Shown here piece after piece: positions 21,701 to 53,709 of a DNA stretch of 54,427 bases. A program made the position numbers and the translations under genes. Below the pieces are notes generated by a model. The model was not told the DNA's origin, made no database searches, and worked only from the letters and a program-made list of their open reading frames with translations. Numbering within the stretch: position 1 is the first letter of the stretch; the number at the start of each line of letters is the position of its first letter. This DNA is from a virus, in the IMG/VR virus record IMGVR_UViG_3300006754_000023, positions 1 through 54,427 of that record; one strand, written 5' to 3'.

Positions 21701-24700
21701 AAGTTTTTTAAATCAAAAGCGACATTTGACAGAGATTTTTTAACGAGTTCTTTATTCGGAGTATCGACCCCTTCATCAGCTAGCGCGAACCATCTACAAG
21801 GTTCTATAACAACCCCCGAGAAAGACAATCGTACTAATTTGCAGGTATATGCAATTAGACCTGAAGCGAGTTCAAAGGATGTTTACTTCATGTTAACATC
21901 CTCATATACCGCCGAAGCCGGCCGGCCATTTCCACTTCTTACTAGTAGTGTATTCAATGATGTATATGATAATCAAAGGTGGAATTTGTCTGTTAGGCTT
22001 AAACCAAAAAATTATGGAGTGTCTGGCTTCGTTGCCGGCTCAACTCCGGATGTCGGTAAAGCATTTGAATATGATGTCATATTCCGCGGCATTACACAAA
22101 ATCTAGGAGTAATACAAGATAGCTTCGAGGTTTCTAGCTCTATAAGTTATATAAAGGGCGCCCGCGCCGCCGCCTCAAACAAAAGAGTATATACCGGTGC
22201 CCAACGATTAAACTTGACAGGCGCCATTGTACACAAGGCCGATTCATTGGTTTCAAATATCAAGTATTGGACGAAACATTTAGAAAATGCCGCATTAAAT
22301 CAGCACTTGTTTGATGTTAATAATTCTGGTATTTCTGGATCCTTCAAAAATACTTCTTTTAATACCACATTGGGTTTAGGCGGACAATATGAAACAATAA
22401 ATCAAAATTCGTTAGCTTTAGAATGGAATTTTGATTCAGTAACTGGATCTGATTCAGGCGGTAACTTTTGGGTTAGCGACTTCTCGTCTGGATCCGCCGT
22501 ATTATTGAACAACTTTGGTTGGATGGGTAACACTTCCGGAATACAACATACTGGATATGGATATAATTTTGCTGAATCTTCAACAAACGTAGTCGACATT
22601 AAAAGAGAAAATTCATTTAAGTTTACTGACCCAGAAGAAAATGTCGGCTCTGATATGATTCAAATCCTAAGTGATGATGAAACATTATTTCCTAGCACGG
22701 AAACAATTCCAAACTACCTGTTTACGATTGAAAAAAGTATGTATCAAGCAATATCAGAAGAGATGCTGATCTTCTTGGCTGGAGTAGTTGATTTCAACAA
22801 CATGGTTGGTGAGCCGGTTCATAGATACCGCTCTCGATACAAATCTATAGAAAAACTTCGAGAAGCATTTTTCCGGCGGGTTACAACTGTCAGTGATGTA
22901 GAAAAATTTGTTGCTTATTATAAATGGTTTGACGACGCGCTATCTCAAATATTCCAGCAGCTAATCCCAGCCTCGATGGACATTGTGGCAGATACCACCA
23001 ACACAATAGAAAGTCATGTGTTGGAGAGAAATAAGTATGAGAACAAGTTCCCAACTTTAGAATTTAAGGTTCCGGACCCCTCATCCCCAGCGTATGGTAT
23101 GACCGAAATGCTATATGGTCCGGACGGTATGAGTCCATTGCCCTCTTCTCCGAGAAAGACCAATATTCGTCTTAAATATTGGAAAGACCGCGCGGAAAGA
23201 GCCGCACCGGAGATTACCTCCGGTGATGCAACGGTTGACAGTCAGAGAGAGACGATTAGACAAATAGTCTCGTCATTCCCGGCGATGACATCAAGCAACA
23301 CTATATTGATCGGCAAGAACTCGCAAGCATACTTGAGTCATGAATATCCCCGTAGAACATTCATAAAAACATTTGATGCGAAAATCACTCGACACGAAGC
23401 TATTAAGGGCGGTGTTAACTTTACAGATGTTAAAAACCTTGATTACGCAAGAGGTGCCCTATACCCGCATGGCCCTGTGAATCAAGCAGATGGTATTTTT
23501 GTACCACAAAACATTCTATTAGCATACGGTAGCGATTTTGAAGCCCTCACAAACTTTAAGGACCGCGTACCAGATCCAATTAAGAAAACAAAACGATACG
23601 GAAAGGCTTTACATGGCCGCGACAGTAATAATAGTGATGGATATCAACACGTAAAAACGTCCATGGCGTTTCCCTTTAATGTTATAAGTTCATCAGTAAC
23701 CGGCGGCTACCAAACACAAGTTCAAAATGCTATGGACATGCATATTGCAATAACAAACTTACACAATGATGTATATGGGCCGGATATGGAAAAACCATTG
23801 CAAGGTCCGTTTACTGAACATAATGTTGGAGGCTTGCAATACCGCCATGCTGGTGTAAATGCTACTGCTACGGATACGTGGAATAATCGTCCGGAAGGTT
23901 GGAAAATTCTTCTTGGTGCATGCAATACTATATATTCCGGCGCCATCGGTATGGTCGGTGCTGATTATCCAGAACCAGTCGCTGACCCCGCACCCACCCC
24001 ATATCCCGCTACTCAACCACAGCGCGCAGTATATTACAGAGATTTTACAGCCAAAAGACCAGTAAATATAAAGAACATTAACACAAAAAACAGTGTTACA
24101 AACAAGATGGTGCTCGGTAACTATAACAATCAATATGAGATTATACATACTTTCGGCGCCACATCAAACCCTAGAAACTTTATTGAAAAGCAGCCCACGC
24201 TGCCGGCCAACGCATTTCAAAATTACGCAACCAGTTCTAGGCCTACATCCATCAGAACCTTCCTCTCCACGAAGCCCGATCGCCCACATGACTCTAATCC
24301 CGTTGGTGGCTCAAGGCAACACTTTGACTTTGTAGAAGATTATAGTGTTTCATATTTGACTGCAGCCGCCGGCAACAAAACAGTTATTAGAAATAAATTC
24401 TCGGCTCCCGGTGGCATAGAAGTCATGACGCCCGGCTACACCGATGTTAGAGCAGACGAATATTCTGTCTATAACGCTCTCCCATTCAAAAATCTGTCGG
24501 TTATTAAACCGCAGCAGATCCCAAGTTCTTCTCATCCGCAAGGCGCCTCAGTGCTCGTAGAAACAAGAGGCATACGACCTTATGATATTCACGGCTATGA
24601 TTTTGGTCTCCGCCCTCATCTTGCTCGACATTCGGCTCGATTCATGCGTGATTCACTGTGGATCTCTGGAACATCAGCTACCCACCAGCAGACAGATCCG

Positions 24701-27700
24701 AGATCCGGCGGACCCGGTGCACAATATGCACAGTTGCCAGGGTTTCACAAGATTCATAGAAATAATATGGACAGATGTAAGCCAGAATACGGATGGGCAA
24801 ACACATACTTAAATAACCATTTGACAAACACAAAACACTTGTTAATAACCGCAAAGAGAACCTCGTCTGATGGCACTACAATATTGATCGATCCTTCTGA
24901 TGTCAACATGTTGACCAAAAGAAAACAAAGAATCTTCGATGGCAATTACGCACAAAACATATTGCCCGGGTCAACACCTAAAAGAGTAGAGTTTTCAGTT
25001 AGCATGTGGTTGAGAGGTTTCCCGTCGGTAGCCGAAGAATTTGTTAGTTTAGGATGGGATGGAACAGCACCGATACATAAACTAAGACGAGAAAGCAACG
25101 GAAAAATTAAATATATGCTCAGAGCACATAATGTTGCGAACAACAGTGCTCAATCAAAGACATTCACCACCACAGCCGCACACCTCACCGGTAGTGACTG
25201 GATAAATTTAGTGTTTACGCTGTCAGCGTTGCATGGTGACCTTTCTAACAATAGAGCAACTGCGTCGTTTTATATTAACGGACTTCACTACCCCGGCACA
25301 TGGTCAGGTAATTTTACAGCAGACTATATTCGAACCGGCTCTACAGCAACGATGAATAACTTCCGAAATTGGGAAAACCTTGATATAGCCTCACCGGTCC
25401 AATTTTTCGGTAGTCTTAACACAAATAACTCTCAGTGGACTGGATCCATTGACGAAATAGCTATGTGGAAGACAGCACTAACCCCTACAGACATTAACAA
25501 ATATTATAACGATGGGAGTCCTATAAACTTAACTGCTTCTTCCGATTCTAATATCGGAAACTTATATTCTTGGTGGAGAATGGGTGATGGCTCTGGTGAT
25601 AATACATCGATTAGCGGCTCGGCTCCGACACAAGACATCAACTTAACTAACAGGATTGTGGATGTAGTTAGTGGTGCTAATATTCAAATAACTGCTAGAG
25701 ATCCTGCTGATCATGGCGCTGCTGTTGTATTAGCCGGCACATCTTCAACGGGCATTTTGGCCGGCGGCGCTACATTGGCTAGCAGAGACTACGTAGTTAC
25801 CGGCTATGATTGCGATCAAATTTATGATAATTTCTTCGTGTCGCATCAAATCCCGCGCCAAACTAAGCAATACGCTTGGATAGCTGCAAGCTTGGTAGCT
25901 GATAATGGCCCCCCTGGATTCAATGCCTTAGATTTCAAGGTGTCCAGTTCCAATGGTCGTGTTGATCAGTACCTTTTTGCTACCTCTAGCCAAGCTTACA
26001 GTTTTCTGGCTGGTACAGTTCGGAAATGGGATCCGACACAAGTAAGTACTATCAGTAACGTTCCCCAAGTTAGCAATTTCAATACTAATATTATTGAACC
26101 AGTTAGTGGTAGTACAAATATTGTAGGATATCCTAATAGTAGCGATAAATTTGCTTATAAGTCGTATATTAATAGTGATTTTGCTGAGCCGACCAGTATG
26201 AACTTTGGCGCCGGCGGACCCGCGGGATATATGTTTAACAGCCTCATGATCAAAAGAAATGGTCTCTTTGGTGGCTCGATGTGGCAGAATATTAGACAGC
26301 GCAGCGACACTCAATTAATCAAGAACGAGCGCGCCGAGAACAAGATCTCCGTCGTATCGCATGACAATCGCACTATTGAAAAATATGATTTACAACCAGT
26401 TAGTGTTTTAGGGCGCCCAGCACAAGTATCAATTCAGATGGTTGACGCGGCTGGCGCCACTCAGAATGTATTAATGACCGTGGGCCACCAGAAAATATAT
26501 TTTCAAGATGATGCCTTAAATCACAGGTATGTTTATGCTCCTCTCGAAATAAATCCGCTTCAAGCATTATTGATGGCAAGCTATGCTTCTCCGGATATCC
26601 GAGATATCAATTACCTCATTAGTAGGGAAAGTATCTTCCCCTCATACAGAAACCATTTACGACGTGTACCTTCCCAGAGAACAGATTACAACAATGGGTT
26701 TTGGCACTCAAACCGAGATGCTCGAAACAGCATTAATGCCGAGTTAGACAGGTATGCATATCCAGTAACCAACCCGCTCTTGCCGGCACCTAACTGGACT
26801 AGAAAGAATTCCTTTAATCTTAGAATGTCTTCTAGCGCTTGGAAAATGGATGCCCCAACTAATATTTTAACTCGCACAGGCCCATCACTAATCCGAGATT
26901 ATGGAGATGGTGCTGACGGCCGCGCAGACATTGATAATTATGTCAAATGGCGCGCCTATGCTTCCCCAGGAGAGCTACAAAATACATATATGTCCTATCA
27001 GACTGGTAGTGCAATATCTTACGGTGAGGGGCCAAATGGCGCCAGACACAACTATGACTTCATGGAGAGAGTCAAAGCTTTCGCGCCCGGCGCACTGTAC
27101 GCGAGAAAACACACTTTAGGTTCTCCACTATCGCTTGCGTCACCGTACGGAGTTCATGACCAAGCGGCCCAACGATACACCACCCAAATACAAACAGCTG
27201 TTGGAACTGTAACATCTGGCATAAAACTCGGAACAACACCTTTTGATATGACCAATCAGGTTGAAGTTTTTGGTGGTGAAGCTGTTTGGGAAGCTGGAGA
27301 AAAAGCCGGTATAGTTGATATAGACAACCTCGGCAATCGCCGCTGGGTCTCTAAGCCAAGCAAGCCGGCCTATGATGATTATGACAAATTCGTCGCCGAA
27401 ATGAAATTTAAGACACGAGGGTATGCGATAGTCCCAGAATACAGGATTAGCCAACATATTCCCGATTACATCGATTTTGGAAAAACAAGCATCGAGGGCA
27501 AAAACGATACCTTTGAAATTCCCGGCACCCAACATAGTAGTTCAAAAAACAACTTTTATATAGATTATAGTAACTCAGAGTTTCTGAGATACTTCCCGCA
27601 AGTCCACAGCGATTCCGGCTTGCCCGCGAGAGAAATCAGGCTAGCATGTTCAGCGAGCATAAAATTCCACCCATACGAAGGGTTTTATCCTGCCGAAAGA

Positions 27701-30643
27701 AGTTTACAACTTGTTGAAAGATTTAGACAGAGCTTCATGCCAAATATGTCAACACGTATTAGATCAACGATGATTCCGGACTCTATTGATGATCTAACAT
27801 TAGATGGAGATACTATTTTATCTGGAGCCGCTGGCTCACTACGACCGCTGTGTGAAGCCATGTTTGCGCCCGGAATTCTATATAATTCAATCAAGTCAGG
27901 TATTGCAGTTGATTACCCAGTTTTCGACGATAGAGTAAAAATTAGTGTTAACGGTTTAGGTTGGAAACCTCCGTCGAGCCAAGGTATAAATGATTATGCT
28001 ATCGGTGTTCGGGAAGCTGATCTTCCAGCCACCACCGGCGAACCTGTCGCACCCGCGGGCGTGGGCGGAATGTATGGTGGCTCAGGTTCTTTCTTCGACA
28101 AAAGAATCCCCTTTGAGGGTATTATCCGTCCAGAGTTGATTAGTAAGCGAGATTTTGTGGACGTCGAACCACACCCAAGTTGTAGTTTAGAATACACCGG
28201 TTCCCTGCGCTCAGCTTATGGGGGGATGCCTGTAACTTCCTCGGTCTTGGCAGGCTTAAATTCAGCAGAGGAGAAAACATATACTCTGATGGCCAGAAAC
28301 TTCTTTGGTGGTGTTGCTGACTTTTATCTCAAGGATTCCGAGTTTACTTCACTTCGCTCTGAACCAATAAAAGAGCTTAAGTTTGGCAATAATGAAGTAT
28401 ACATGGCTAGAATTAAACTCAGACGCTCCGTTACAGGATCGAGAATTTATAATAAGGAGTCAGGATCTTTTAGTATTTATGCATATAATCGCCTAGGCGG
28501 CCGCTCTTTCACACCCAACCCAAGACTCGCAACGAAGGCGGCGAGGTCCATATCTCAACAATATCAGGCAGGCGCCTCATATTTTGAGTTGCCACAGGAT
28601 CCTGTGAATTCTCCCTCGTTTAAAGAAACATTCACAATGTACAGTCGCCCAACCGCCTTTGGGCCACCGATCGAGGGAATACATGGCCTGGATGCCACGA
28701 ACCCAATTGGTCCCAGTCAGCGCCTATCTCCATATACTTCATCTTTCTATACGTCAGGCGCTTTTCAAGTAATGGACAGTAGAACGGGCTTTAACTGGGC
28801 TTATACACCTCCTTATTATAATGGTGAGGCTTGGGTTGATCTTATTTTTAGGCCCGAAACTGGCGTGACTTATGATTTAGAAAAAATTATGGCAGCAACC
28901 CAGACTGTCTGTTGGCGTGTCGATCCAGGCCCGAGAGTAAATAATTACGATTGGAAATTATCACCCTCCACAGGGAAAACCTCACCAATCGCTGGTGCTC
29001 GAACTTATAGTGGTAATCCGAATAATCCGCACGGATACGGATATGCTAAAGATATTGTGCACGGCTATCATTCATTAATCCATGATCCATATTGCATTAC
29101 AAGTAATTATACCTTTCCAACAGCAATTTATGGCGGTACCCTAATCAATGATTCAGCTATGCAAGCAACTAGTAGTTTGAACATTTTTGGTATCGAATCG
29201 GTACCAAAAGAAATTATTGATCATGATAGTGGCAGAACCATATTATCTGAGACTGAAACAGTTGGTAAAAAGTGGGTCATTCAGACAAAGTTTGAAACTC
29301 CAATGCTTAACTTTAATGACAAATATGGGGATAGACCAGTCACCGCTAGCTTAAATAACAAGACAATAACGCGCACCCTCGCCGGCGGTGGAACGCAGGG
29401 TATATATGCCTCCGGATCGATCGCCAATGGAATGTGGCATCAGTTCGGAACCCTTCCACACAACGCGGAGACTGGTGTGTTTTTAGAGATGCATGACATG
29501 TCCGAAAACTGGCTCAAAAATCATTATCTCGTAAGAAACTCTGGAAGTGCATATAATAACTACATCCCAGACACTGATGGCGAATTGGCACCAAAGGTCA
29601 AATCTCTGAGAGATAGGATTGGTTTTGGAGATAAACAAAAAAGCAAAAGAATCGGAGAATTGAAAGATTCACTAACAGTGAAAGAAGCTATTATTGCGGT
29701 ACCCTATATGTTAACAGCAGAAGAGCCGGCTAATGGTACGATACCAACAAGTGTAGAAAATAAATATTTGTTCGAAATCCCATTAGCACAAATAGACGCG
29801 TCCCTAGATGATCTAATGAACACCCCGGTGGGACTATCGTTAGATTTTGTGGGACAGTCTATCAGGACCCAGGTTAGGTTAATGCAAGAATATATAATCC
29901 CCCCACAGTTTGATTTTATCACGAATAGGGAACTCCAACCTATTGTTATGTATATATTTGAGTTTAGTCACACATTTGACAAAGACGATCTATCGTACAT
30001 GTGGCAGAATGTAATGCCAAGAAACTACAACAAGTTTGAGTTAAAAGGCGCCTCGGTATCCCACATATTAGCGAATAACGAACTTTTTCAGGAGTCTGAT
30101 TTGTTAGAGAATCCAAATTTAAGATGGCAGGTTTTTAAAGTAAAACAGAGAGTACAGTCTAATTATTATGATAAAAAAGTATCCACTATTGGTAGCTTAG
30201 CTTATGGTGCGGGTACTGGTCATGCTCCTCTTGATGGTTTTGATTCTTATGCACAATATAACTGGCCCTATGATTTCTTTTCGATTATTGAGTCAGTCAA
30301 AATTGATGCTGATATTAAAATGTCACATGAAGAATCTGAAGTTGTTAGTCGGTACGGCGGAGCAATCGGTGAGGAATTCACCCCGGGCACATCGACATCC
30401 CCACCAATGCCACCGGGATCTGAGGGCGCCACAGCACGTGCAGCCTTCGTCGAAAGTGTCTCGGCACCTACCAAAACATTTAAAATGCGAACTCCGGGAG
30501 ATGACCTTTATGGAGCCAGCGGCGCGGCGGCCGTTGCTCGGGAGGCAAGTGCCGTTGCCCGCGGCACAACAGATGAGGCACCAGCTGCCTCAAAGGCCTC
30601 TAGTCCCGGAACGCCAGATGGTATTAAGAAGGATATTTATTAA
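18737..30643 (+). CDS. Giant LamG-domain virion protein (3968 aa)
   Basis: This is the largest gene in the window. Three laminin-G/concanavalin-like modules are visible: one from about residue 199 (VTVEFWLKTG) that resumes near 625 (GSIDEFRYW); one of about 345-590 (GWWRLN, SFSAWIRPA, WAHVVVSYD, LADVAIWN) lying inside the first; and one of about 2084-2260 (EFSVSMWLRG, GSIDEIAMWKTAL). LamG folds bind glycans or proteins. The rest is long beta-rich sequence, and the C-terminal 80 residues are rich in Ala, Pro and Gly. It begins one base after the previous stop and ends in a TAATG overlap. It probably forms a large fibre or baseplate-attached host-recognition protein. Confidence 0.7.
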   Translation: MSSRKLFESINQSVQTTDYKTQKETFEQVESQDNASELYRKQETFEPQIDYDDPYKFAKYGSAYYYYQGALDRVINFYPYDGSKYEQNKFYNALLPIEKYIFNNKHPRSTGYATLSSDGWGGTTKTNGYGLPSALEYITFKGGPNTGSAGTSLVSQGPDPSSGFRDYGNIYDEGIYETAGLPDDYGKGTRESNLRANFDDGVTVEFWLKTGSYAALPTLTNKQVVFDWWNNEATTSSKYGRILIELTSSVDEDDNPIKPFVITVESGSTSARRFVSLGPSSLHNNLDTWQHYAISMFNSGSIFKTRLYVNGSLSDTSDRVYDLNTHMPVFPGTALESQKYSSTKTLQGWWRLNTEQFSVNDKVPDSSVHNRPGTFIAATHVPTVSPTVPSKYIQNATSSYNFDGTTDAIHIGNPIGSPSLWNNIIGTGPEGSSKMSFSAWIRPASLGEGSRGTILDFGANDILFRVETNGSGGYRIVYSTKWNGGDFVHWTATSMNGVFNQWAHVVVSYDATSTSNNAVLYYNGVAQTVAETGTAPAVAWDGIDGTVGGTIGNNSGGSGTFDGRLADVAIWNSILSATEVEALYSAVTVDLVDLTVGELPSKKAMGRIGALQTAPVGTTAAIGAGKLSGSIDEFRYWKALRNSQQIGQNWFDQIGGGTNTDINNTELGIYYKFNEGITQTASIDRVILDYSGRVSNAAWTGYSTTSRNTGSAIVSASAARTEHEDLIIRSNHPKYVTLRSQLLESGSFYDSTNNASFLSYAPSWIIEEHEDMGNENLKLISHIAGAYFDKIRLYAQALPTFKHVNYVSASAEPLPFASHLPQSMGMYMSDIFTDATLQEILLNRDDKAFFESSLKEAKDLIYQNLYNNLTSIYKSKGTEKSFRNVLRAFNIDDNILRFKIYADNQIYEISDNLRQVVAENKLVNFNNVSNLNAVVYQRDLGSVHPPERGYISGSFVQGASAGSTPLNVGTVGAEQRFGFTVEADVVFPKFFKSKATFDRDFLTSSLFGVSTPSSASANHLQGSITTPEKDNRTNLQVYAIRPEASSKDVYFMLTSSYTAEAGRPFPLLTSSVFNDVYDNQRWNLSVRLKPKNYGVSGFVAGSTPDVGKAFEYDVIFRGITQNLGVIQDSFEVSSSISYIKGARAAASNKRVYTGAQRLNLTGAIVHKADSLVSNIKYWTKHLENAALNQHLFDVNNSGISGSFKNTSFNTTLGLGGQYETINQNSLALEWNFDSVTGSDSGGNFWVSDFSSGSAVLLNNFGWMGNTSGIQHTGYGYNFAESSTNVVDIKRENSFKFTDPEENVGSDMIQILSDDETLFPSTETIPNYLFTIEKSMYQAISEEMLIFLAGVVDFNNMVGEPVHRYRSRYKSIEKLREAFFRRVTTVSDVEKFVAYYKWFDDALSQIFQQLIPASMDIVADTTNTIESHVLERNKYENKFPTLEFKVPDPSSPAYGMTEMLYGPDGMSPLPSSPRKTNIRLKYWKDRAERAAPEITSGDATVDSQRETIRQIVSSFPAMTSSNTILIGKNSQAYLSHEYPRRTFIKTFDAKITRHEAIKGGVNFTDVKNLDYARGALYPHGPVNQADGIFVPQNILLAYGSDFEALTNFKDRVPDPIKKTKRYGKALHGRDSNNSDGYQHVKTSMAFPFNVISSSVTGGYQTQVQNAMDMHIAITNLHNDVYGPDMEKPLQGPFTEHNVGGLQYRHAGVNATATDTWNNRPEGWKILLGACNTIYSGAIGMVGADYPEPVADPAPTPYPATQPQRAVYYRDFTAKRPVNIKNINTKNSVTNKMVLGNYNNQYEIIHTFGATSNPRNFIEKQPTLPANAFQNYATSSRPTSIRTFLSTKPDRPHDSNPVGGSRQHFDFVEDYSVSYLTAAAGNKTVIRNKFSAPGGIEVMTPGYTDVRADEYSVYNALPFKNLSVIKPQQIPSSSHPQGASVLVETRGIRPYDIHGYDFGLRPHLARHSARFMRDSLWISGTSATHQQTDPRSGGPGAQYAQLPGFHKIHRNNMDRCKPEYGWANTYLNNHLTNTKHLLITAKRTSSDGTTILIDPSDVNMLTKRKQRIFDGNYAQNILPGSTPKRVEFSVSMWLRGFPSVAEEFVSLGWDGTAPIHKLRRESNGKIKYMLRAHNVANNSAQSKTFTTTAAHLTGSDWINLVFTLSALHGDLSNNRATASFYINGLHYPGTWSGNFTADYIRTGSTATMNNFRNWENLDIASPVQFFGSLNTNNSQWTGSIDEIAMWKTALTPTDINKYYNDGSPINLTASSDSNIGNLYSWWRMGDGSGDNTSISGSAPTQDINLTNRIVDVVSGANIQITARDPADHGAAVVLAGTSSTGILAGGATLASRDYVVTGYDCDQIYDNFFVSHQIPRQTKQYAWIAASLVADNGPPGFNALDFKVSSSNGRVDQYLFATSSQAYSFLAGTVRKWDPTQVSTISNVPQVSNFNTNIIEPVSGSTNIVGYPNSSDKFAYKSYINSDFAEPTSMNFGAGGPAGYMFNSLMIKRNGLFGGSMWQNIRQRSDTQLIKNERAENKISVVSHDNRTIEKYDLQPVSVLGRPAQVSIQMVDAAGATQNVLMTVGHQKIYFQDDALNHRYVYAPLEINPLQALLMASYASPDIRDINYLISRESIFPSYRNHLRRVPSQRTDYNNGFWHSNRDARNSINAELDRYAYPVTNPLLPAPNWTRKNSFNLRMSSSAWKMDAPTNILTRTGPSLIRDYGDGADGRADIDNYVKWRAYASPGELQNTYMSYQTGSAISYGEGPNGARHNYDFMERVKAFAPGALYARKHTLGSPLSLASPYGVHDQAAQRYTTQIQTAVGTVTSGIKLGTTPFDMTNQVEVFGGEAVWEAGEKAGIVDIDNLGNRRWVSKPSKPAYDDYDKFVAEMKFKTRGYAIVPEYRISQHIPDYIDFGKTSIEGKNDTFEIPGTQHSSSKNNFYIDYSNSEFLRYFPQVHSDSGLPAREIRLACSASIKFHPYEGFYPAERSLQLVERFRQSFMPNMSTRIRSTMIPDSIDDLTLDGDTILSGAAGSLRPLCEAMFAPGILYNSIKSGIAVDYPVFDDRVKISVNGLGWKPPSSQGINDYAIGVREADLPATTGEPVAPAGVGGMYGGSGSFFDKRIPFEGIIRPELISKRDFVDVEPHPSCSLEYTGSLRSAYGGMPVTSSVLAGLNSAEEKTYTLMARNFFGGVADFYLKDSEFTSLRSEPIKELKFGNNEVYMARIKLRRSVTGSRIYNKESGSFSIYAYNRLGGRSFTPNPRLATKAARSISQQYQAGASYFELPQDPVNSPSFKETFTMYSRPTAFGPPIEGIHGLDATNPIGPSQRLSPYTSSFYTSGAFQVMDSRTGFNWAYTPPYYNGEAWVDLIFRPETGVTYDLEKIMAATQTVCWRVDPGPRVNNYDWKLSPSTGKTSPIAGARTYSGNPNNPHGYGYAKDIVHGYHSLIHDPYCITSNYTFPTAIYGGTLINDSAMQATSSLNIFGIESVPKEIIDHDSGRTILSETETVGKKWVIQTKFETPMLNFNDKYGDRPVTASLNNKTITRTLAGGGTQGIYASGSIANGMWHQFGTLPHNAETGVFLEMHDMSENWLKNHYLVRNSGSAYNNYIPDTDGELAPKVKSLRDRIGFGDKQKSKRIGELKDSLTVKEAIIAVPYMLTAEEPANGTIPTSVENKYLFEIPLAQIDASLDDLMNTPVGLSLDFVGQSIRTQVRLMQEYIIPPQFDFITNRELQPIVMYIFEFSHTFDKDDLSYMWQNVMPRNYNKFELKGASVSHILANNELFQESDLLENPNLRWQVFKVKQRVQSNYYDKKVSTIGSLAYGAGTGHAPLDGFDSYAQYNWPYDFFSIIESVKIDADIKMSHEESEVVSRYGGAIGEEFTPGTSTSPPMPPGSEGATARAAFVESVSAPTKTFKMRTPGDDLYGASGAAAVAREASAVARGTTDEAPAASKASSPGTPDGIKKDIY

Positions 30644-45145: not shown

Positions 45146-45180
45146 ATTTTATACTAACAATGATAAAAAGGAGAAATAAA

Positions 45181-45666
45181 ATGCCAAATCTTATTCGTAG
45201 AGGCGCCCAACCCGCGCGCCAAATTTCAAAGCGGGAATTCCTGACTCCATTTGATGAAATATTCAATAACTTGATGGGAGATATGTTTCCAACATTCCAT
45301 CAGGAGTTCGGACAAGACTTTTTTGTACAAGGATCATATCCAAAGTGCAATGTATTGAATTTTGATGATCGCGTTGAAATTGAAGCCGCAATTCCGGGGC
45401 TTACAAAAGAAGACGTATCTGTTGAGGTTGTGGACGGCGTACTTACGATCAAGGCCGAGAGCAACCAACGTGCCAATGTTGAAGATTCGCAATATGTTAA
45501 GCGAGAAGTTAAACGCTCCGCATTCGCACGCTCCTTCCGCCTCGGGGATAATCTGGTGGAAAGAGACATCTCAGGCGCGTTTGAAAATGGAATCTTAACT
45601 ATCACACTTCCGAAGGTTCAGCCTACGAACATTGAACCCGCTGTGCACAAGATTGAGATTCGCTGA
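45181..45666 (+). CDS. Small heat-shock protein Hsp20
   Basis: The protein is 161 residues from ATG 45181, with AAGGAG nine bases upstream; a longer frame from 45160 is not supported. Residues about 55-150 form the alpha-crystallin domain: VEIEAAIPGLTKEDVSVEV, then GVLTIKAE, VKREVKRSAFARSFRL, and ENGILTITLPK. The tail has the I-x-I motif (I158-E-I160) used for oligomer contacts. It holds unfolded proteins and may help assemble the very large virion proteins. Hsp20 genes occur in many marine T4-like phages. It has its own promoter and terminator. Confidence 0.92.
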   Translation: MPNLIRRGAQPARQISKREFLTPFDEIFNNLMGDMFPTFHQEFGQDFFVQGSYPKCNVLNFDDRVEIEAAIPGLTKEDVSVEVVDGVLTIKAESNQRANVEDSQYVKREVKRSAFARSFRLGDNLVERDISGAFENGILTITLPKVQPTNIEPAVHKIEIR

Positions 45667-45672
45667 AATCAA

Positions 45673-45698
45673 GCCCCCCTGCAATGGGGGGCATTTTC
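45673..45698 (+). terminator. Rho-independent terminator after hsp20
   Basis: GCCCCCC (45673-45679) pairs with GGGGGGC (45686-45692) around a six-base loop, followed by ATTTTCT. The stem is strong and the T run short. It isolates hsp20 from the FKBP promoter, whose -35 begins four bases later. Confidence 0.8.
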
Positions 45699-45701
45699 TA
45701 C

Positions 45702-45730
45702 TTGACATGTGTAGGATTACATGTTACTAT
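45702..45730 (+). promoter_or_regulatory. Sigma70-type promoter of the FKBP gene
   Basis: TTGACA at 45702-45707, a 17-base spacer, and TACTAT at 45725-45730; a TATAAT at 45728-45733 would need a 20-base spacer. The -35 again lies in CTTGACAT. A good ribosome site (TAGGAG) precedes the ATG at 45767. Confidence 0.7.
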
Positions 45731-45766
45731 AATTAAGATGATCTTTCATCATACCTAGGAGATAAA

Positions 45767-46330
45767 ATGAAAGTAACAACCGGACACAATGTTAGTGTCC
45801 ATTACAAAGGTACCCTCTCGGATGGTACCGAATTTGATAATTCGAGAACACGCGGAACTGCAATTAACTTTGAAGTTGGATCACCCCGGATGATTCGTGG
45901 CTTTAATGATGCGGTTGTGGGAATGGCTGTCGGAGAGACTAAATCGGTCACTCTAGAGCCGGATGCCGCATATGGCCCACGCAACGAGAATGCCTTCCAG
46001 AAGGTACCTCGGGAAGCCTTTGGTCCAGATTTTGAGTTTCGTGTCGGAGGGACTATTCAAGGAAACGGCCCAGCAGGCCCATTCTTGGCAAAGATCTTCG
46101 AACTTCAGGACGATCATGTGGTTCTTGATATGAACCATCCATTGGCCGGCCAACATCTTAGCTTTGAGATCGAGGTTGTCTCGGTCGATGGTGGAGAAGT
46201 TTCGGTAACCAGCGGAACATGGACTCCGAAGATGAAGAAAGCCCAACTTCTTGAATTCGCTCGCGAGCGTGGATTGGACGTCAATACACGTACGACTAAG
46301 AAGCAACTTATCGCTGCCCTTCAGGGATAA
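45767..46330 (+). CDS. SlyD-type FKBP peptidyl-prolyl isomerase with C-terminal SAP/HeH-like domain
   Basis: This 187-residue protein has the FKBP core (VSVHYKGTLSDGTEFDNS, then MIRGFNDAVVGMAVGETKSV and AAYGPRNE), interrupted at about residues 75-130 by the chaperone flap typical of SlyD, and closing with MNHPLAGQHLSFEIEVV. Such enzymes turn proline bonds and hold nascent chains. SlyD proteins normally end in a His-rich tail. Here residues 152-186 instead read WTPKMKKAQLLEFARERGL, then TTKKQLIAALQG, a SAP or HeH-type helix pair often used to bind DNA. It is transcribed alone, between its own promoter and terminator. Confidence 0.88.
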   Translation: MKVTTGHNVSVHYKGTLSDGTEFDNSRTRGTAINFEVGSPRMIRGFNDAVVGMAVGETKSVTLEPDAAYGPRNENAFQKVPREAFGPDFEFRVGGTIQGNGPAGPFLAKIFELQDDHVVLDMNHPLAGQHLSFEIEVVSVDGGEVSVTSGTWTPKMKKAQLLEFARERGLDVNTRTTKKQLIAALQG

Positions 46331-46870: not shown

Positions 46871-47809
46871 ATGAACAGAAAAGAAGCAAAGAAGATCCTG
46901 TATGAAACGCTTGGGCACTACTCAGACAAAGGCAACGAATTACTTTTCGCGTGTCCGGCATGCAATCACCACAAGCGTAAGTTCTCAGTTAACTTGGATA
47001 AAAATGCTTATAAGTGTTGGGTTTGCGATTATCGCGGTCGTAATATTAGGCGTGTTGTTAGGCGTTTTGGTTCGTATACACAACTACAGAAATGGGACGC
47101 AATTACAAACCGGTCAGATCTTGAAAGATTTGCTGACCTCTTTATGGCACCAGAGTCTGGAGAAAGCCCGCAGAAACTCGAACTCCCGTCAGAATTCGTA
47201 AGCCTTTGTCACAGCAACATACCCGCCACGGGCTTATATGCTTTGCGCTATTTAGAATCCCGCGGCATTACGAAAGACGATATCATACGATGGAAGATAG
47301 GATATTGCTTCAGCGGCGAATATAGAAATAGAATTATTTTTCCGTCCTTTGATAATGACGGCGATGTGAATTACTTTGTTGGTCGATCATATTCCGGAGA
47401 TTCTTATAAATATAAAAACCCCAAAGCTTCGAAGAATATAATTTTTAACCACCTATATATCGACTGGAATAAAGATTTAACCATAGTAGAGGGAATTTTT
47501 GATGCACTGGTCGCAGGAAACGCTGTTCCTATATTGGGTTCAACATTACGGTCTGACTCCGAACTTATACGAGAAATCGTTAAAAACGACACCCCAGTCT
47601 TCATTGCCCTCGACCCAGATGCCGCAGACAAAGAGCGTCGGGTTATTAAGACGTTGCTTAAATATGATATCGAACTTTATAAGATCGATGTCGCCGGATA
47701 CGAAGATGTAGGTTCGATGCCAAAGAGCATATTTGAAGAAAGAAAAAACAATGCTGTATTTATCGATAACGACGACTATTTATTATTAGATTTATTATCG
47801 GCAATATAG
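46871..47809 (+). CDS. DNA primase (DnaG/T4 gp61 type)
   Basis: This 312-residue protein has an N-terminal zinc finger with C28-x2-C31 and C49-x2-C52 (CPACNHHKRKFSVNL, then YKCWVCD). It is followed by the RNA-polymerase region (GYCFSGEYRNRIIFPSFD, then YFVGRSYS and YKYKNPK). The TOPRIM domain has the glutamate E207 in TIVEGIFDAL and the D-x-D motif D248/D250 in IALDPDAADKERR. It makes RNA primers for lagging-strand synthesis. No helicase is fused, as in T4. The length fits a compact phage primase. It starts the unit that also contains the tagged small proteins. Confidence 0.9.
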   Translation: MNRKEAKKILYETLGHYSDKGNELLFACPACNHHKRKFSVNLDKNAYKCWVCDYRGRNIRRVVRRFGSYTQLQKWDAITNRSDLERFADLFMAPESGESPQKLELPSEFVSLCHSNIPATGLYALRYLESRGITKDDIIRWKIGYCFSGEYRNRIIFPSFDNDGDVNYFVGRSYSGDSYKYKNPKASKNIIFNHLYIDWNKDLTIVEGIFDALVAGNAVPILGSTLRSDSELIREIVKNDTPVFIALDPDAADKERRVIKTLLKYDIELYKIDVAGYEDVGSMPKSIFEERKNNAVFIDNDDYLLLDLLSAI

Positions 47810-47820
47810 GAGAAGATAGT

Positions 47821-48279
47821 ATGAAAGTCGCGCGCTCAGAACTTAAAAAAATAATCAAAGAAGAATTAGAAGCAGCCTTATCTGAAGACAACCCAGCATC
47901 CGGCGAGAATCCACAGGCGATCGCTGATGTTGCCGACGCATTAGGCCAATCAGAAGTTGTTATGAACACGGTACAACAGTTATCACAGGACCCTGAATTG
48001 GCAGCAATATTGGCGGCTGCTATGGAAGAGGGTAACCTAGGCGAAACTTATGATCGCTCCGCCCAAGATTTAAACACAGCAAAAACTGCGATGATAGGTG
48101 GCGGAACAATAGCTATCGCCAGCCTTATTGCCTCTTCTCCCACTTCTGTTTTTGCTGTAGAGTTCTTGCCATGGCTGGCTGCTAACCCAGCAGCTGCAGC
48201 ACTGGGGATAGTGGGCGGCCCGCTGTTGATGGCTCTTGGAGTATTGATCGCGAAGAACGCCCTTAACAACACTAAGTAA
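47821..48279 (+). CDS. Tagged small protein 1 with Ala-rich hydrophobic C-terminus
   Basis: This 152-residue protein starts MKVARSELKKIIKEELEAAL-SE, an amphipathic helix that ends in the (L/I)-x-E triplet L20-S21-E22. Three downstream neighbours share the same helix. The middle is acidic. Residues about 90-150 form two hydrophobic Ala/Gly-rich helices (GGGTIAIASLIASS and LGIVGGPLLMALGVLIAKN), so the mature part may insert into a membrane. No family is recognised. If the tag is a head-targeting peptide, this could be an internal head protein that reaches the host membrane. Confidence 0.6.
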   Translation: MKVARSELKKIIKEELEAALSEDNPASGENPQAIADVADALGQSEVVMNTVQQLSQDPELAAILAAAMEEGNLGETYDRSAQDLNTAKTAMIGGGTIAIASLIASSPTSVFAVEFLPWLAANPAAAALGIVGGPLLMALGVLIAKNALNNTK

Positions 48280-48291
48280 AGTAATAAGAAT

Positions 48292-48316
48292 ATGAAAATC
48301 ACAAAACAACAACTTA
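48292..48316 (+). repeat. 25-base direct repeat, copy 1 (tag-coding)
   Basis: The first 25 bases of the gene are identical to 48549-48573, in the same reading frame, and encode the start of the N-terminal tag. Similarity ends soon after the tag, except for another 13 shared bases around the KEEI codons. Confidence 0.85.
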
Positions 48317-48537
48317 AACAGATCATTAAAGAAGAGATTGGAAAGGTTTTGAACGAACGTGAGGTATTTACTTATAGCGGAGATGCACAAGAGCTTATCG
48401 ATTATGCAAAGTCTCTGGGTTGGGAATTTATTGAAGATAATTATGTCGATGCCGATGATTATATTGATTGGGACAAAGCGATGGGCGAAGCCACCGCGTT
48501 TCTGAAAGATAAAGAAGTTGAAATAGAATATAATTAA
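48292..48537 (+). CDS. Tagged small protein 2
   Basis: The product has 81 residues and begins with MKITKQQLKQIIKEEI, the shared N-terminal helix, ending with L20-N21-E22. The remaining 59 residues are an acidic alpha/beta fragment (SGDAQELIDYAKSLGWEFIEDNYVD...). The first 25 bases of the gene are identical to those of the gene at 48549. The function of the body is unknown. Confidence 0.6.
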   Translation: MKITKQQLKQIIKEEIGKVLNEREVFTYSGDAQELIDYAKSLGWEFIEDNYVDADDYIDWDKAMGEATAFLKDKEVEIEYN

Positions 48538-48548
48538 GGAAAAATAAA

Positions 48549-48573
48549 ATGAAAATCACAAAACAACAACTTA
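48549..48573 (+). repeat. 25-base direct repeat, copy 2 (tag-coding)
   Basis: Second exact copy of the tag-coding repeat. A third, diverged version starts the gene at 49193 and a fourth, more distant one starts the gene at 47821. Confidence 0.85.
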
Positions 48574-49151
48574 CACAACTGCTTAAAGAAGAGATTCGAA
48601 ATATTATAGAAGAGGGCCACGGCGCGCATTTATCAATGATGCCCGCCGCAAAGACAATGTCCTCTCACGGTATAGCATCGCGTCCAGAGTCTGTTAGAGC
48701 AGAACTTATGAAACTGGTTGTCGACTTGGACCCCCAGGACCCAGAAGAGCTACAACAGCTGGCTAATATGGTCGCTAGTTTAATGGATGCCTCACAAGAA
48801 AACATTGAAGGCGATTATGGTCTTGAAGAAGGCGCCGAATTAAAGATCCCAGTCGAAAGATACGATGCATTCAAAAGAAAGATCGAACAGTGGGGTATGT
48901 TGTTTAACAAATTTACCGGATATACAGCAGATTTGGATCTTCAGTCGTTTGATCGAAAAACTGAGGGACGTAGAATACGTAGAATGGCTGTCAAGCTTGA
49001 TCAAGAATTGTTCAAGATTATGAAAGAATTCGACTTAGATTATAAGGACTATGAAGATGAGCGCCACGCGCAGCGTCAAAAGCTCGATAGGTTTGATGGC
49101 GATAACGAATTCTTTTTAGAAGAAAAAGAAGAAGATGAAGAACACGTGTGA
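48549..49151 (+). CDS. Tagged small protein 3
   Basis: This 200-residue protein has the N-terminal helix MKITKQQLTQLLKEEI and an (L/I)-x-E triplet I20-E21-E22. The body is acidic, mostly helical (AELMKLVVDLDPQDPEELQQLANMVASLM, then ERYDAFKRKIEQWGMLFNKFTGY) and ends in a Glu/Lys-rich tail. I do not recognise the body. It is followed by a small hairpin and the fourth tagged gene. Confidence 0.6.
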   Translation: MKITKQQLTQLLKEEIRNIIEEGHGAHLSMMPAAKTMSSHGIASRPESVRAELMKLVVDLDPQDPEELQQLANMVASLMDASQENIEGDYGLEEGAELKIPVERYDAFKRKIEQWGMLFNKFTGYTADLDLQSFDRKTEGRRIRRMAVKLDQELFKIMKEFDLDYKDYEDERHAQRQKLDRFDGDNEFFLEEKEEDEEHV

Positions 49152-49162
49152 CCACAAAAACA

Positions 49163-49181
49163 AGCACTCAGTTTGAGTGTT
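49163..49181 (+). promoter_or_regulatory. Small hairpin before tagged gene 4
   Basis: AGCACTC at 49163-49169 can pair with GAGTGTT at 49175-49181 (seven pairs, one G-U) over a five-base loop, directly in front of the GGGAG ribosome site. The arms look like CIRCE half sites but the spacer is 5, not 9. It may limit translation of the next gene. Confidence 0.35.
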
Positions 49182-49192
49182 GGGAGATAAAA

Positions 49193-49441
49193 ATGAAGAT
49201 CACAAAAGAACAACTTAGAAAAATTATTATGGAAGAAGTTGCTTCTGAGGGTATTGTTGATACAGACATCGGCGGCCATGGCGATGAAGCAATCGTCACC
49301 GGACCAGAAGGAGACGCTTCTGAGCATGCTCAGGCAGGTGCTCGCCTTAAGGATGTTATTCTGTATCTCGAAGGGAATGACAGAGCCGACTTGGCAGAGC
49401 CACTCCGCAAGATTCAAGAAATGATCGACGCACTTAGATAA
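49193..49441 (+). CDS. Tagged small protein 4
   Basis: The product has 82 residues from ATG 49193; the frame is open upstream to 49148 but GGGAG supports this start. It begins MKITKEQLRKIIMEEVASEG, the shared helix. In this copy there is no (L/I)-x-E at residue 22; the nearest candidate is V16-A-S-E19. The rest is acidic with a C-terminal helix (ARLKDVILYLEGNDRADLAE...). The function is unknown. Confidence 0.55.
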   Translation: MKITKEQLRKIIMEEVASEGIVDTDIGGHGDEAIVTGPEGDASEHAQAGARLKDVILYLEGNDRADLAEPLRKIQEMIDALR

Positions 49442-49514: not shown

Positions 49515-52500
49515 TTGAAATTTGCACATATTAGCGACACTCATATCAAAAATTTGAAGTATCATTATGAATACAGAATTGTTTTTGAGCAGTTATACAA
49601 AACCTTACGAGAACAAGAAGTTGATTACATTGTTCACTGCGGAGACATTGCACACACGAAGACACAAATCTCACCTGAGTTTGTCGAGATGTGTTCTGAC
49701 TTCTTTCGCAGTTTAGCAGAGATTGCACCAACATATATTATCTTGGGCAACCACGACGGCAATCTAAAGAATAGTAGCCGCCAAGATGCGCTTACACCCA
49801 TCGTAGATGCGTTAAACCTTCCTAGGCTGCACTTGCTCAAGGACTCAGGAGAAACGCATCTAAATGATGACTTCTGTTTGAATGTTCTGTCGGTCTTTGA
49901 TCGAGAACAGTGGCTAAAGCCAAGTAATCCGGATAAGATCAACATTGCTCTTTACCACGGCTCTATTAGTCGCTGTAAAACAGACACTAACTGGACAATG
50001 AGTTTTGGCGAAGACGAGATCACAATCTTTGATGATTTTGATTTTGCAATGCTTGGCGATATTCACAGGCGCCAATTCTTAGATGACGCCGGCCGCATTT
50101 GGTATGCCGGCTCAACGGTCCAACAGAATCACGGTGAAACTAACGACAAGGGCATTCTTATATGGGATATTAAATCAAAGGATGAGTGGGATATTGAACC
50201 GATTGTGTTACAAAACCCCAAACCCTTTTTCACTATCCCGTTGACACTCCGCGGCCGCATGCCAAGAAAAATTGAAGTACCAGAAAACGCGCGCCTTCGT
50301 TTAGTCAGCACTAACAACTTGCCGCTCAATGTAATGAAGCGAGCAATGGATATTGCTAAGTCTAGATTCAAGCCCGAATCTATATCGTTTTTAAATCGCG
50401 CTAGCGGTGAACGCGGAAATGTAGAAGAAATCACAGACGGCCTCAAGACTGAAAACTTGCGAGACCCAAAGATCCAAGAAGAGCTTATTTCAGAGTACCT
50501 TAAAGACCATCAGGTGCCCTCTGACACTATGGAAAAAGTTTATGAGTTAAATCGTACTTACAACAAAATCATCGAAGAGAAAGAAGAAGTCTCGCGCAAT
50601 GTTAATTGGAAGCTAACAAATTTTGAGTTTGATAATCTTTTTAATTATGGTGAAGACAATGCTGTCAATTTTAGTTCTCTTAATGGTATTATTGGGATTT
50701 TCGGAAAAAACTTTAGCGGTAAAAGTTCCATTATTGACGCTGCTCTTTATACTTTATTTAATACAACTTCAAAAAATGAACGAAAGAACCTCAATGTCAT
50801 CAATCAGAATAGAGACCTCGGTAGAGGTAAACTAACAATTGAGTGTAATAATAAAACATATACCATTGAAAGAGAATCAAAGAAATATGTCAAGCGTTTG
50901 AAGGGGGAAGAAACCTTAGAAGCTAAAACAGATCTCAACTTCGAAGTATACGATCCGCTTACGGATGAGACGGTTTCACTTAATGGGACCACACGCAATC
51001 AGACAGATGCAAATATTCGTAAGCACTTTGGCACTATGGACGACTTTATGGTATCTTCGTTGGCTTCACAGCACGGCTCATTGGCCTTCATTGACGAAGG
51101 TTCCACCCGCCGAAAAGAAATTATTGCAAAGTTTTTAGATTTGGAGATTTTTGAAAAGAAATTTAAAATGGCCAAAGATGACTCTATCGAAGCCAAGGTT
51201 CTAATTAAGAAGCACCAAAATCGAGATTATGGCGAAGAAATAGAAGAATCGAAGTTAGCCCTGCTACAGCAAGTACAAAAGTCTGAAAACAATAAGACGG
51301 TCTGTGAGTTGCTCAAAAATAAGATCGAAGCAACAAAGACGTCCCTAACCTTGGTTGACGAACAGATCTCAACGATTCCAGCAGAACTTATCGACATTAG
51401 AAATGTAAGAGAACAACAAAAAAGTAAATCTCGTATGCTGGTCTCCTTGGCTAGCACGATCTCTGAACAAAACACTATAGCAAAGCTAAAACAGATCAAA
51501 ATAATTAATTTGAATAAGATTTTAGAATCTGTAGATTTAGAGAAATTATTAAAAGATAAGTCTACGATCGACAAAGTAAAGCAAAACATATCTCTTTTGA
51601 ATCGCAGCATAGGCGAAGCGGACAAAAAGATTAAAATGCTGAAGGATCACAAGTACGATCCAGATTGTAAATATTGCAGCGAGAACACCTTTGTTAAAGA
51701 TGCTCATGCCGCGTCTAAAGATAGAAAAAACGATGTTACCACATTAAAGACGACAGAGAACAAGCTTGATGAACTTAAGCCAGAACAGAACAAAAGCAAT
51801 CTAATAAGGTATGAATCAATTGCTTCCGAGTTGTCGGTTGCTGAAAAGGAGTTGTCTAATATTAAGCTCGCTAGAGAAAGAAATAAGAATTCTTTAACCA
51901 GAACAGAGCTTGAATTAAGAGAGATCACAGAGTTAATTAAAAAATATGATGACAACAAAGATGCAATCGAAAACCTTGAAGAACTTATGACAATGCGAAC
52001 CGATTTCAATAAACAGATCGGCACCCTATCAAGTGAACTTGAATCTTGCGAGTCCGACACTCTTGAGGTTGTAAAAATGATAGGTTCTTGTGAGCAGAAG
52101 ATAGAAACCTTGCAAGAACAGAAAAAAGAATATGTCGACTTACAAAATTCATATGCAGCCTACGATCTGTTTATGCAAGCTATGCATCCTAATGGAATAG
52201 CATACGATGTAATCAAAAAGAAGATACCAGTGATCAATCAAGAAATTGCTAAAGTGCTAGCAAATATTGTGGATTTTGAGATTTTCTTTGAAAGTTTCGG
52301 AAATAAGTTTGATATTTTTATTAAACACCCGCTTTATGATGAGCGCCCGATTGAAATGGCGTCAGGGGCGGAGAAGACGATGGCGGCCATGGCCATCCGG
52401 TTATCGCTCTTAAGTGTCTCTTCTCTTCCAAAATCGGATGTGTTTATCCTTGACGAACCCGGGACAGCATTAGATGAAGAAAATATGGAGGGATTTATTC

Positions 52501-52631
52501 GTATCTTGGAACTAATTAAAGTGTATTTCAAGAATGTCTTACTTATCTCACACCTTGATTCGCTCAAAGACTGTGTTGATATGCAAGTCGTAATCGAAAA
52601 GAAAGACGGATATGCAAGAGTAAACCAGTAG
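49515..52631 (+). CDS. Single-chain Mre11-Rad50 (T4 gp47-gp46, SbcD-SbcC) fusion
   Basis: The start is TTG 49515, four bases after GGAGGG. Residues 1-340 form a calcineurin-type nuclease with all Mre11 motifs: DTH, GDIAH, GNHDGN, YHGS and GDIHRRQ. From about 363 a Rad50/SbcC ATPase follows: Walker A GKNFSGKSS (about 397-405), a coiled coil with a zinc hook C718-x-x-C721, the signature ASGAEKT (949 onward), Walker B VFILDEP (976-982) and the H-loop LISHLD. The two activities are separate proteins in T4 and in cells. Here one 1038-residue chain joins both. It resects DNA ends for recombination-dependent replication and may degrade host DNA. Confidence 0.93.
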   Translation: MKFAHISDTHIKNLKYHYEYRIVFEQLYKTLREQEVDYIVHCGDIAHTKTQISPEFVEMCSDFFRSLAEIAPTYIILGNHDGNLKNSSRQDALTPIVDALNLPRLHLLKDSGETHLNDDFCLNVLSVFDREQWLKPSNPDKINIALYHGSISRCKTDTNWTMSFGEDEITIFDDFDFAMLGDIHRRQFLDDAGRIWYAGSTVQQNHGETNDKGILIWDIKSKDEWDIEPIVLQNPKPFFTIPLTLRGRMPRKIEVPENARLRLVSTNNLPLNVMKRAMDIAKSRFKPESISFLNRASGERGNVEEITDGLKTENLRDPKIQEELISEYLKDHQVPSDTMEKVYELNRTYNKIIEEKEEVSRNVNWKLTNFEFDNLFNYGEDNAVNFSSLNGIIGIFGKNFSGKSSIIDAALYTLFNTTSKNERKNLNVINQNRDLGRGKLTIECNNKTYTIERESKKYVKRLKGEETLEAKTDLNFEVYDPLTDETVSLNGTTRNQTDANIRKHFGTMDDFMVSSLASQHGSLAFIDEGSTRRKEIIAKFLDLEIFEKKFKMAKDDSIEAKVLIKKHQNRDYGEEIEESKLALLQQVQKSENNKTVCELLKNKIEATKTSLTLVDEQISTIPAELIDIRNVREQQKSKSRMLVSLASTISEQNTIAKLKQIKIINLNKILESVDLEKLLKDKSTIDKVKQNISLLNRSIGEADKKIKMLKDHKYDPDCKYCSENTFVKDAHAASKDRKNDVTTLKTTENKLDELKPEQNKSNLIRYESIASELSVAEKELSNIKLARERNKNSLTRTELELREITELIKKYDDNKDAIENLEELMTMRTDFNKQIGTLSSELESCESDTLEVVKMIGSCEQKIETLQEQKKEYVDLQNSYAAYDLFMQAMHPNGIAYDVIKKKIPVINQEIAKVLANIVDFEIFFESFGNKFDIFIKHPLYDERPIEMASGAEKTMAAMAIRLSLLSVSSLPKSDVFILDEPGTALDEENMEGFIRILELIKVYFKNVLLISHLDSLKDCVDMQVVIEKKDGYARVNQ

Positions 52632-52644
52632 GAGATTGCACGAT

Positions 52645-53709
52645 ATGAAATTACTAATGGAAAACTGGAAAAAGTTCGTAAACGAAGATATAGAAACAGA
52701 AGAACAAGCAGCACAATGGTTAGCACAGAACATTGCACCACTTATTGATGCAGCAGATGCTGGTAATTTTAATCAACCCTTAGCGCAACTAGTTGCAAAA
52801 TTAAACACGCCTGAAGGCGCAAGCCCAGCAGTAAGGGCGCTTCTTAAACTTGGTGACGAAGATGCAAAGCCTTCTGACGAGGTAATCAAAGTTGCTATGG
52901 GGCAAACTATTCCCGCACCTCAACTAGTGCCAACTCAGGGCGTCATCGATTTGTTTAAGTCTGTAGGTTTTAATGGTTCTAATGCTAAAGGCTTGCAAGC
53001 TGTTATCGCTGGTACTTCGGCCGCTCCACCTATTCTTGTAGCCGGAAACGGTGGTACATATTATATTATTGATGGTCACCATAGGTGGTCCGGCGCAACT
53101 GTTTTTAACACCAATTGTAAAATTCCTGCCAATGTAATTGTAATGGATCCAGGCAAAGCGCTTTTAGTTAGCCAATTGGCAATTGCAGCATATCTTGGCG
53201 CCGGCAAAGCGATCCCGTCAGCATCAGCTAAGAAAGGCCGAAGCATTATCGGATCAAGTGCGATGGATAGAGAACAAGTTGAGCAAGCACTTTTATCCAA
53301 TGTTGGAAAAGTTATGGACCCTAAATCGGGTGGCAGCTTTATGAACCCTAAAGTTATAGCGGTTATAGGAAACACAGGATATGGACAGGGAACAGGTGGC
53401 AAACCTGTCAAGGGCTTCCAAGGTTCGGCTCCCGAAGAGGAAGCAGAACAAGTTCAAGAATTGACCACACCTGGCGGCAAACTTGGCAAGAGAAAGGAAA
53501 GGCTTGTAGTCGGAGCTTGTGCTGAGATTGCTGACAACTGCGGCGCCCTCGCACAAAAGTATTCTAGCGAAGGCCCACCAAGAGAAATCATGCCACAGTT
53601 TGATCCAGATAAGGGTGGCCCAGATTTCAGTGCAGTTAAAGATGATTTTGCTGGTGGTAAGTTAAACTTTGCACCTACATTTACTAGAGCCAAAAAGGCC
53701 GCAGAATAA
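52645..53709 (+). CDS. ParB/sulfiredoxin-like protein with an N-terminal capsid-targeting-like peptide
   Basis: The protein is 354 residues from ATG 52645; TTG 52636 is too close to the TAGGAG ribosome site. It begins MKLLMENWKKFVNE, a short peptide of the form MKxxxE...F-x-x-E followed by an acidic helix. Residues about 125-170 contain LVAGNGGTYYIIDGHHRWSGA; DGHHR is the motif of ParB-like nuclease/CTPase and sulfiredoxin folds. The C-terminal half is rich in Gly, Ala and Lys and unassigned. It lies between the Mre11-Rad50 gene and an FtsZ-like gene. It could act on DNA or as a nucleotide-using modifier of host proteins. Confidence 0.6.
   Translation: MKLLMENWKKFVNEDIETEEQAAQWLAQNIAPLIDAADAGNFNQPLAQLVAKLNTPEGASPAVRALLKLGDEDAKPSDEVIKVAMGQTIPAPQLVPTQGVIDLFKSVGFNGSNAKGLQAVIAGTSAAPPILVAGNGGTYYIIDGHHRWSGATVFNTNCKIPANVIVMDPGKALLVSQLAIAAYLGAGKAIPSASAKKGRSIIGSSAMDREQVEQALLSNVGKVMDPKSGGSFMNPKVIAVIGNTGYGQGTGGKPVKGFQGSAPEEEAEQVQELTTPGGKLGKRKERLVVGACAEIADNCGALAQKYSSEGPPREIMPQFDPDKGGPDFSAVKDDFAGGKLNFAPTFTRAKKAAE

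Follow-up and report, generated by a model that had tools for sequence, protein, structure and literature searches.

We find that four adjacent small proteins of a phage genome begin with the same 22-residue leader (tag A), and that these shared residues are probably a capsid-targeting propeptide, T4-like in its working, whose cargo would be packed, cut and probably delivered. In T4, internal head proteins carry a short N-terminal peptide that routes them into the prohead and is cut after (L/I)-x-E by gp21. At the level of sequence comparison, our analysis establishes a modular N-terminal leader with an (L/I)-x-E boundary, the swapping of leaders between bodies, a prohead protease in the same genome, and a second leader (B) on genes at that protease. 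Tag A itself appears to belong to a set of three or more interchangeable leaders on unrelated proteins in this phage group (consensus A, MKITKxQLKQIIKEE...LxE; B, MKLLxENWRKYLxE; C, KRIDPRYFLxE).

The analysed stretch as a whole, here called the window, comprises 54,427 bases and is itself an IMG/VR record. A longer record, 3300025096_000001 (195,459 bases), contains all of it, with 11 mismatches. Because this longer record has a terminal direct repeat of 127 bases, we treated it as complete and circular, with a genome length of 195,332 bases. Genome positions beyond 54,427 are window coordinates continued through this complete 195-kb genome.

Four adjacent genes with a common leader

The original prediction described four adjacent open reading frames (ORFs) with unrelated bodies behind a common leader, and we confirmed both the ORFs and the leaders. 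The leader reads MK(I/V)xKxxLxx(I/L)(I/L)xEE, and in three of the four proteins residues 20-22 are exactly L20-S-E22, L20-N-E22 or I20-E-E22, as had been claimed. The first gene (47821..48279, + strand, 152 aa; leader MKVARSELKKIIKEELEAALSE, 47821-47886) belongs to this set of three. Its body is acidic, with a hydrophobic C-terminal half and without a known domain, and distant homologs of the body (L198, L051) bear leader C in place of tag A. The second (48292..48537, +, 81 aa; leader MKITKQQLKQIIKEEIGKVLNE, 48292-48357), also without a known domain, has the top tag-A profile score in the complete genome, 42.6. The third (48549..49151, +, 200 aa; leader MKITKQQLTQLLKEEIRNIIEE, 48549-48614) consists of the leader, a linker that ends in L-E-E and runs to residue 94, and a conserved helical body that begins GAELKIPVERYD at residue 95. 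The fourth (49193..49441, +, 82 aa from the ATG; leader MKITKEQLRKIIMEEVASEGIV, with MKITKEQLRKIIMEEV at 49193-49240; profile score 22.3) is the only one that lacks (L/I)-x-E at residues 20-22. This gene could instead start with a GTG at 49148, which would give a longer frame, but GGGAG directly precedes the ATG; a homolog of its body, in L090, likewise carries tag A.

The four bodies show no mutual resemblance, and none matched a Pfam or NCBIfam family above that family's cut-off, which bears out the claim that they are unrelated. Their mature pI values are 4.0-4.7. An AlphaFold model of the 48549 protein (mean pLDDT 47) did not have the quality that a fold search needs.

For context, the left-hand neighbor of the cassette is a DnaG-like primase gene (46871..47809, +; phrog_47, E=1.8e-46), and the right-hand neighbor encodes a fused SbcD-SbcC-like protein (49515..52631, +). 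Promoter motifs told us little: near the cassette there are 24 sigma-70-type matches versus 20.8 in shuffles, and the T4 late-promoter box TATAAATA occurs 13 times in the window versus 5.9. Elsewhere in the window, a single ORF of 3968 aa, the largest (18737-30643), lies amid baseplate and tail genes, and in the region 45160-46330 a small heat-shock gene, Hsp20 (Pfam E=1e-19), adjoins an ORF that by eye resembles a prolyl isomerase of the FKBP type, to which a further segment is added at the C terminus. The window's phage also has a further repeated family of small proteins with another kind of common start: many small ORFs at about 139-159 kb, window-continued (parts of L191-L193), begin MKVGDLV or MQVGDLI.

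Specificity and spread of tag A

A profile built from leader residues 7-22 scores exactly six genes of the 195-kb genome at 14.9-42.6, while the maximum over 47,791 interior windows of the proteome is 8.7; tag A is thus not a chance resemblance. The six are the window's four and two more, at 56176 and 57955 (window-continued), so the proposed search of the full genome did yield further tagged proteins.

The tag is also common in other virus contigs, where it had been suggested that we look. A degenerate codon pattern for MKITKxQLxxIIxEE found at least 120 stretches in virus contigs, and a less specific control pattern, with the codons reversed, found 7. In each of the 20 large records that we tested there are 2-11 copies, always on one strand within a record, and none of the reversed pattern. 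Altogether we collected 251 distinct tag-A proteins, whose bodies form 190 clusters. Across phages the residues are fixed while the codons vary, which indicates selection on the leader. By contrast with virus contigs, 84,980 cellular genomes gave only 8 stretches, on 5 contigs, all from metagenome-assembled genomes; one of these contigs holds seven tags together with an S77 protease, which suggests binned phage DNA. When cultured phages were searched by tblastn with the 22-residue tag by itself, one version gave no match, and another gave a single weak match (E=6) to an uncultured 484-kb record. Mel-JY01, a distant cultured relative, has the protease and no tags; among cultured phages, the window's SbcDC protein matched this one alone. 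No cultured isolate bearing the tags came to light.

With a median of 85 aa, tag-A bodies are small, and most are acidic (pI below 5.5 in 65%); recognizable effector domains are almost absent from them. One recurring domain, GEGSMARxQLxRTAExAxMLxxMIxDDxxLEEWVExKI, was seen in many tag-A proteins and in at least one large tag-B protein, in their C-terminal parts (L263, L061, L031, L025, L055, L111, L141).

The leader ends at residue 22

Over the 190 body clusters, residue conservation drops to background past residue 22. (L/I)-x-E ends exactly there in 64 clusters (34%), against a background of 1.2%. Of the 82 cases with L or I at residue 20, 64 have Glu at residue 22 and none has Asp, even though the two are about equally common within tag-A bodies. 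This count is independent of our search, whose pattern left residues 17-22 free; I12-x-E14 is nearly invariant as well, but the pattern fixed it and it is not counted as evidence. About half of the clusters, 49193 included, have no (L/I)-x-E within residues 18-25. The absence of Asp at residue 22 matches T4, where Asp at P1 blocks processing: in internal protein III, Asp for Glu at position 10 blocks processing and not targeting (PMC9026906).

The family of the 48549 protein places the boundary directly. In nine homologs (L140, L141, L143, L146, L200/L454, L447, L449, L451, and L093) the conserved body starts at exactly residue 23, for example with MKITKRELKEILKEEIEATIDE followed immediately by GAELKIPVERYD. 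The window's 48549 protein and L201/L139 have a longer linker, which ends in L-E-E or M-K-E ahead of GAELKIPVE. Two further homologs, L203/L144 and L147 (VKKLFENWRKHTNEA, MKKLFENWRKNITEA), have leader B instead, then a linker ending in M-N-E, and then the 48549-type body. The joins at (L/I/M)-x-E, together with this swap, indicate that the leader is an exchangeable module of defined length.

Leaders B and C

Tag B, whose conservation ends at residue 14-15, was found on 196 distinct proteins in 104 body clusters, with a median body of 186 aa. Family matches among them include protein kinase (Pkinase), zeta toxin/AAA_33 (Zeta_toxin), ART-PolyVal, NUDIX, and GNAT, as well as nucleotidyltransferase, ParB, HAD, and others; by analogy, the first five are enzymes of the kind that would be expected of injected effectors. 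In the window's phage the tag-B genes start at 52645, 54859, 63766, 65365, 163326, 165572, and 166632, all but the first window-continued, and a degenerate copy at 167141 (window-continued) is weakly HAD-like. The 52645 gene (52645..53709, +, 354 aa; leader MKLLMENWKKFVNE, 52645-52686) has a body weakly like ParB-type nucleases (phrog_1033, E=3.6e-4; Pfam ParBc_2 below its cut-off), and its homolog L103/L197 has tag B as well. The 165572 protein (165572-166588 window-continued; L191, 12669-13682, - strand) is kinase-like, with a Pkinase match (E=9e-7) just under the Pfam cut-off, and is possibly a head-packaged kinase. In the proteome of the window's phage, the first 25 residues are 25-fold enriched in the motif W-x-x-(F/Y)-(L/I)-x-E relative to all other positions. 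Tag C, RKNxKRIDPRYFLxE, occurs on 19 proteins and is never internal.

Tag-A bodies recur behind leader B in many pairs, six of which we verified by alignment. Such exchanges on natural bodies indirectly favor the idea that a leader by itself may be enough to load a foreign protein.

The prohead protease and the head genes

The original prediction would have been abandoned if the genome lacked a prohead protease of the gp21 type. The complete genome of the window's phage encodes one, a Peptidase_S77 at 64767-65372 (window-continued; E=4.6e-30), about 16 kb downstream of the tag-A cassette and on the same strand. An S77 protease is present in 17 of 20 large tag-bearing records versus 9 of 18 control contigs (Fisher p about 0.02). 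With half of the controls positive, its presence alone is weak evidence, and the co-occurrence is something that the reading needs rather than proof of it.

The genes directly before and after the protease in the window's phage (63766 and 65365) carry leader B, and B-like leaders lie on the protease-flanking genes of several relatives. Shortly downstream of the protease, a further ORF has a tag-A-like leader, MKKNDLKHLIKPLVKECIHEVLLEEG in the window's phage and MAKMSRNQLKSLIKECLVEVLVEG in a jumbo relative. On the tag-A profile, five jumbo versions of this leader score 13-22, above the interior maximum of 8.7, and that of the window's phage scores 3.8, below it, so the link to the head genes is graded by group: firm in the jumbo group and suggestive in the window's phage.

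Gene order and annotated relatives place a terminase-like gene at 58802 and a portal-like gene at 60685, and a gp23-like major capsid protein gene lies at 74239 (all window-continued). The capsid protein has L-L-R-E directly after a conserved ENQAK stretch, near the position of the F-L-T-E/A site of the T4 capsid protein (slash, cut); at this position the capsid proteins of relatives have LLRE, IVSE, or LISE. Between the protease and the major capsid gene we also noted an ORF that is bS21-like by eye (66946-67191 window-continued), and Mel-JY01 has an annotated RpsU gene at the corresponding place.

Alternative explanations

Besides a capsid-targeting propeptide, three other accounts of the shared leader were weighed. 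The tagged proteins might be parts of the prohead core or scaffold that are cut up and mostly lost, rather than packaged, injected effectors. The small size and low pI of tag-A bodies are what core proteins can show, the protease-proximal ORF with the tag-A-like leader is conserved, and T4 gp22 and gp67 are indeed cut to fragments (PMC9026906). However, unrelated bodies in 190 clusters, with turnover from phage to phage, fit accessory cargo better, as do arrays of 2-11 tagged genes per record, and some of these bodies also occur behind leader B, a leader with clear enzymes among its proteins. A core or scaffold role is thus possible but, in our judgment, unlikely. We regard as improbable a never-cut docking helix for some other partner (RNA polymerase, membrane, portal, or tail), in which (L/I)-x-E would simply mark the helix end. 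The hydrophobic residues of tag A, at 8, 11, 12, 16, 19, and 20, have a periodicity that suits a helix, the low-confidence model of the 48549 protein makes residues 5-26 helical, and the half of the clusters without the motif in 18-25 would be accommodated. Yet Glu, never Asp, at residue 22 after L or I at 20 is unexpected for a mere helix end, and the nine bodies that start directly past E22, the related leaders on protease-flanking genes, and the fact that a replacement leader brings its own (L/I)-x-E all speak against it.

The remaining account is plain paralogy, with the four genes as products of recent duplication, their 5' ends still undiverged, and a leader that has no function. Two of the genes, 48292 and 48549, are adjacent and have leaders identical in DNA over their first eight codons, as this account would have it. 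It is disfavored by leader swaps on shared bodies, one body type being found behind the unrelated leaders A, B, and C, and by the constancy of residues over variable codons, which points to selection; we consider it very improbable.

Proposed mechanism and implications

The evidence as a whole supports the original interpretation in part. That the tag is transferable is strongly supported by the unrelated bodies, the body start at residue 23, and the bodies shared between two leaders. The S77 protease, the Glu-never-Asp (L/I)-x-E22 boundary, the same body start, and the protease-flanking leaders argue strongly that it is a cleavable leader. The likeness to the T4 peptide is one of pattern, and leaders B and C and the second possible site, I12-x-E14, go beyond what was first proposed. 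Under the capsid-targeting reading, we infer core docking, cleavage, packaging, and injection of the tagged proteins; an effector role for the four window bodies is putative. As the head assembles, the amphipathic leader would dock the cargo to the prohead core, and the S77 prohead protease would cut after (L/I)-x-E at residue 22, with a second cut possible after I12-x-E14. The mature body would remain in the head with the DNA and would probably be delivered to the next host cell, as are T4 IPI-IPIII and Alt.

It is tempting to generalize, and we lean, with modest confidence, towards a modular loading code in large uncultured T4-superfamily phages. At least three interchangeable leaders would be read by the core and removed by the protease, and the cargo packed and delivered at infection would run to hundreds of bodies with rapid turnover, among them nucleases, kinases, ADP-ribosyltransferases, enzymes like zeta toxin, and many further families. 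Packaged or injected phage proteins are normally learned only through mass spectrometry of cultured phages. If such a code is real, the injected proteins of a virus could be listed from its sequence alone. Should the leaders prove to be propeptides that target the capsid, genomes would suffice to predict what large uncultured phages package, and nearly 300 mostly uncharacterized body clusters would gain a predicted location, timing, and mature N terminus. Through swapping, the leader would become an address label that can move from protein to protein.

Comparison with known systems

We searched the literature for the leader strings and, in marine phages, for shared head-targeting leaders, and nothing specific was returned; none of six leader strings stood in any paper covered. 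Because these searches covered sources other than subscription journals and supplements, the description of tag A as new is likely rather than certain. Propeptides cut after a motif that ends in Glu are documented for phiKZ and SPN3US, ejection proteins among their carriers (PMC9026906, PMC10052503). As proposed here, head proteins are cut by a gp21-related protease, and the SPN3US propeptides are 20-24 residues long (PMC10052503). Their motif differs (A-x-E or S/A-x-E), and a transferable leader on many unrelated bodies is not described in the accessible part of that source (PMC10052503).

The polyvalent proteins of phages and plasmids are predicted to be packaged and injected with the DNA (PMC5512222), and their effector domains overlap those of tag-B proteins (ART-PolyVal, ParB, NUDIX, and GNAT), but they are large multidomain chains, whereas the tagged proteins are many separate proteins with one short leader each. 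The polyvalent arrangement, in which disparate domains are strung along a single long chain, is not seen in the four window proteins (81-200 aa). The ADP-ribosyltransferase Alt of T4 is packaged (PMC9026906, PMC5512222). Set beside Alt by description, tag B, with ART-PolyVal among its bodies, follows the same logic of a packaged enzyme, but its cargo covers many enzyme types.

The closest parallel in working is with T4 IPI, IPII, and IPIII. These share with the tagged proteins a short N-terminal leader on unrelated bodies, an (L/I)-x-E end, and an S77 protease in the genome. The T4 leaders (AF158101), with cut sites as described for T4, are MKTYQEFIAE/A in IPII and IPIII and MKTFKEFTSTTTPVSTITE/A in IPI. 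T4 propeptides are 10-19 residues long, compared with 22 for tag A, and the positions that matter in them are 4 and 7 when it comes to targeting, 8 and 10 when it comes to cleavage (PMC9026906). The tags, known here from sequence, also differ from T4 in having at least three interchangeable leaders and many more cargo families. We rejected sequence homology to the T4 leader, with IPI and IPIII scoring below -17 on the tag-A profile, and we therefore call the tag capsid-targeting-like in its working, not a homolog. Of the proposed T4-like targeting peptide, what stands is the resemblance in pattern. Aligned on the Glu, T4 has Y..FIAE, tag B has W..YLxE, tag C has P.YFLxE, and tag A has L..IIKE, so that all four have the frame hydrophobic-x-x-hydrophobic-(I/L)-x-E in common.
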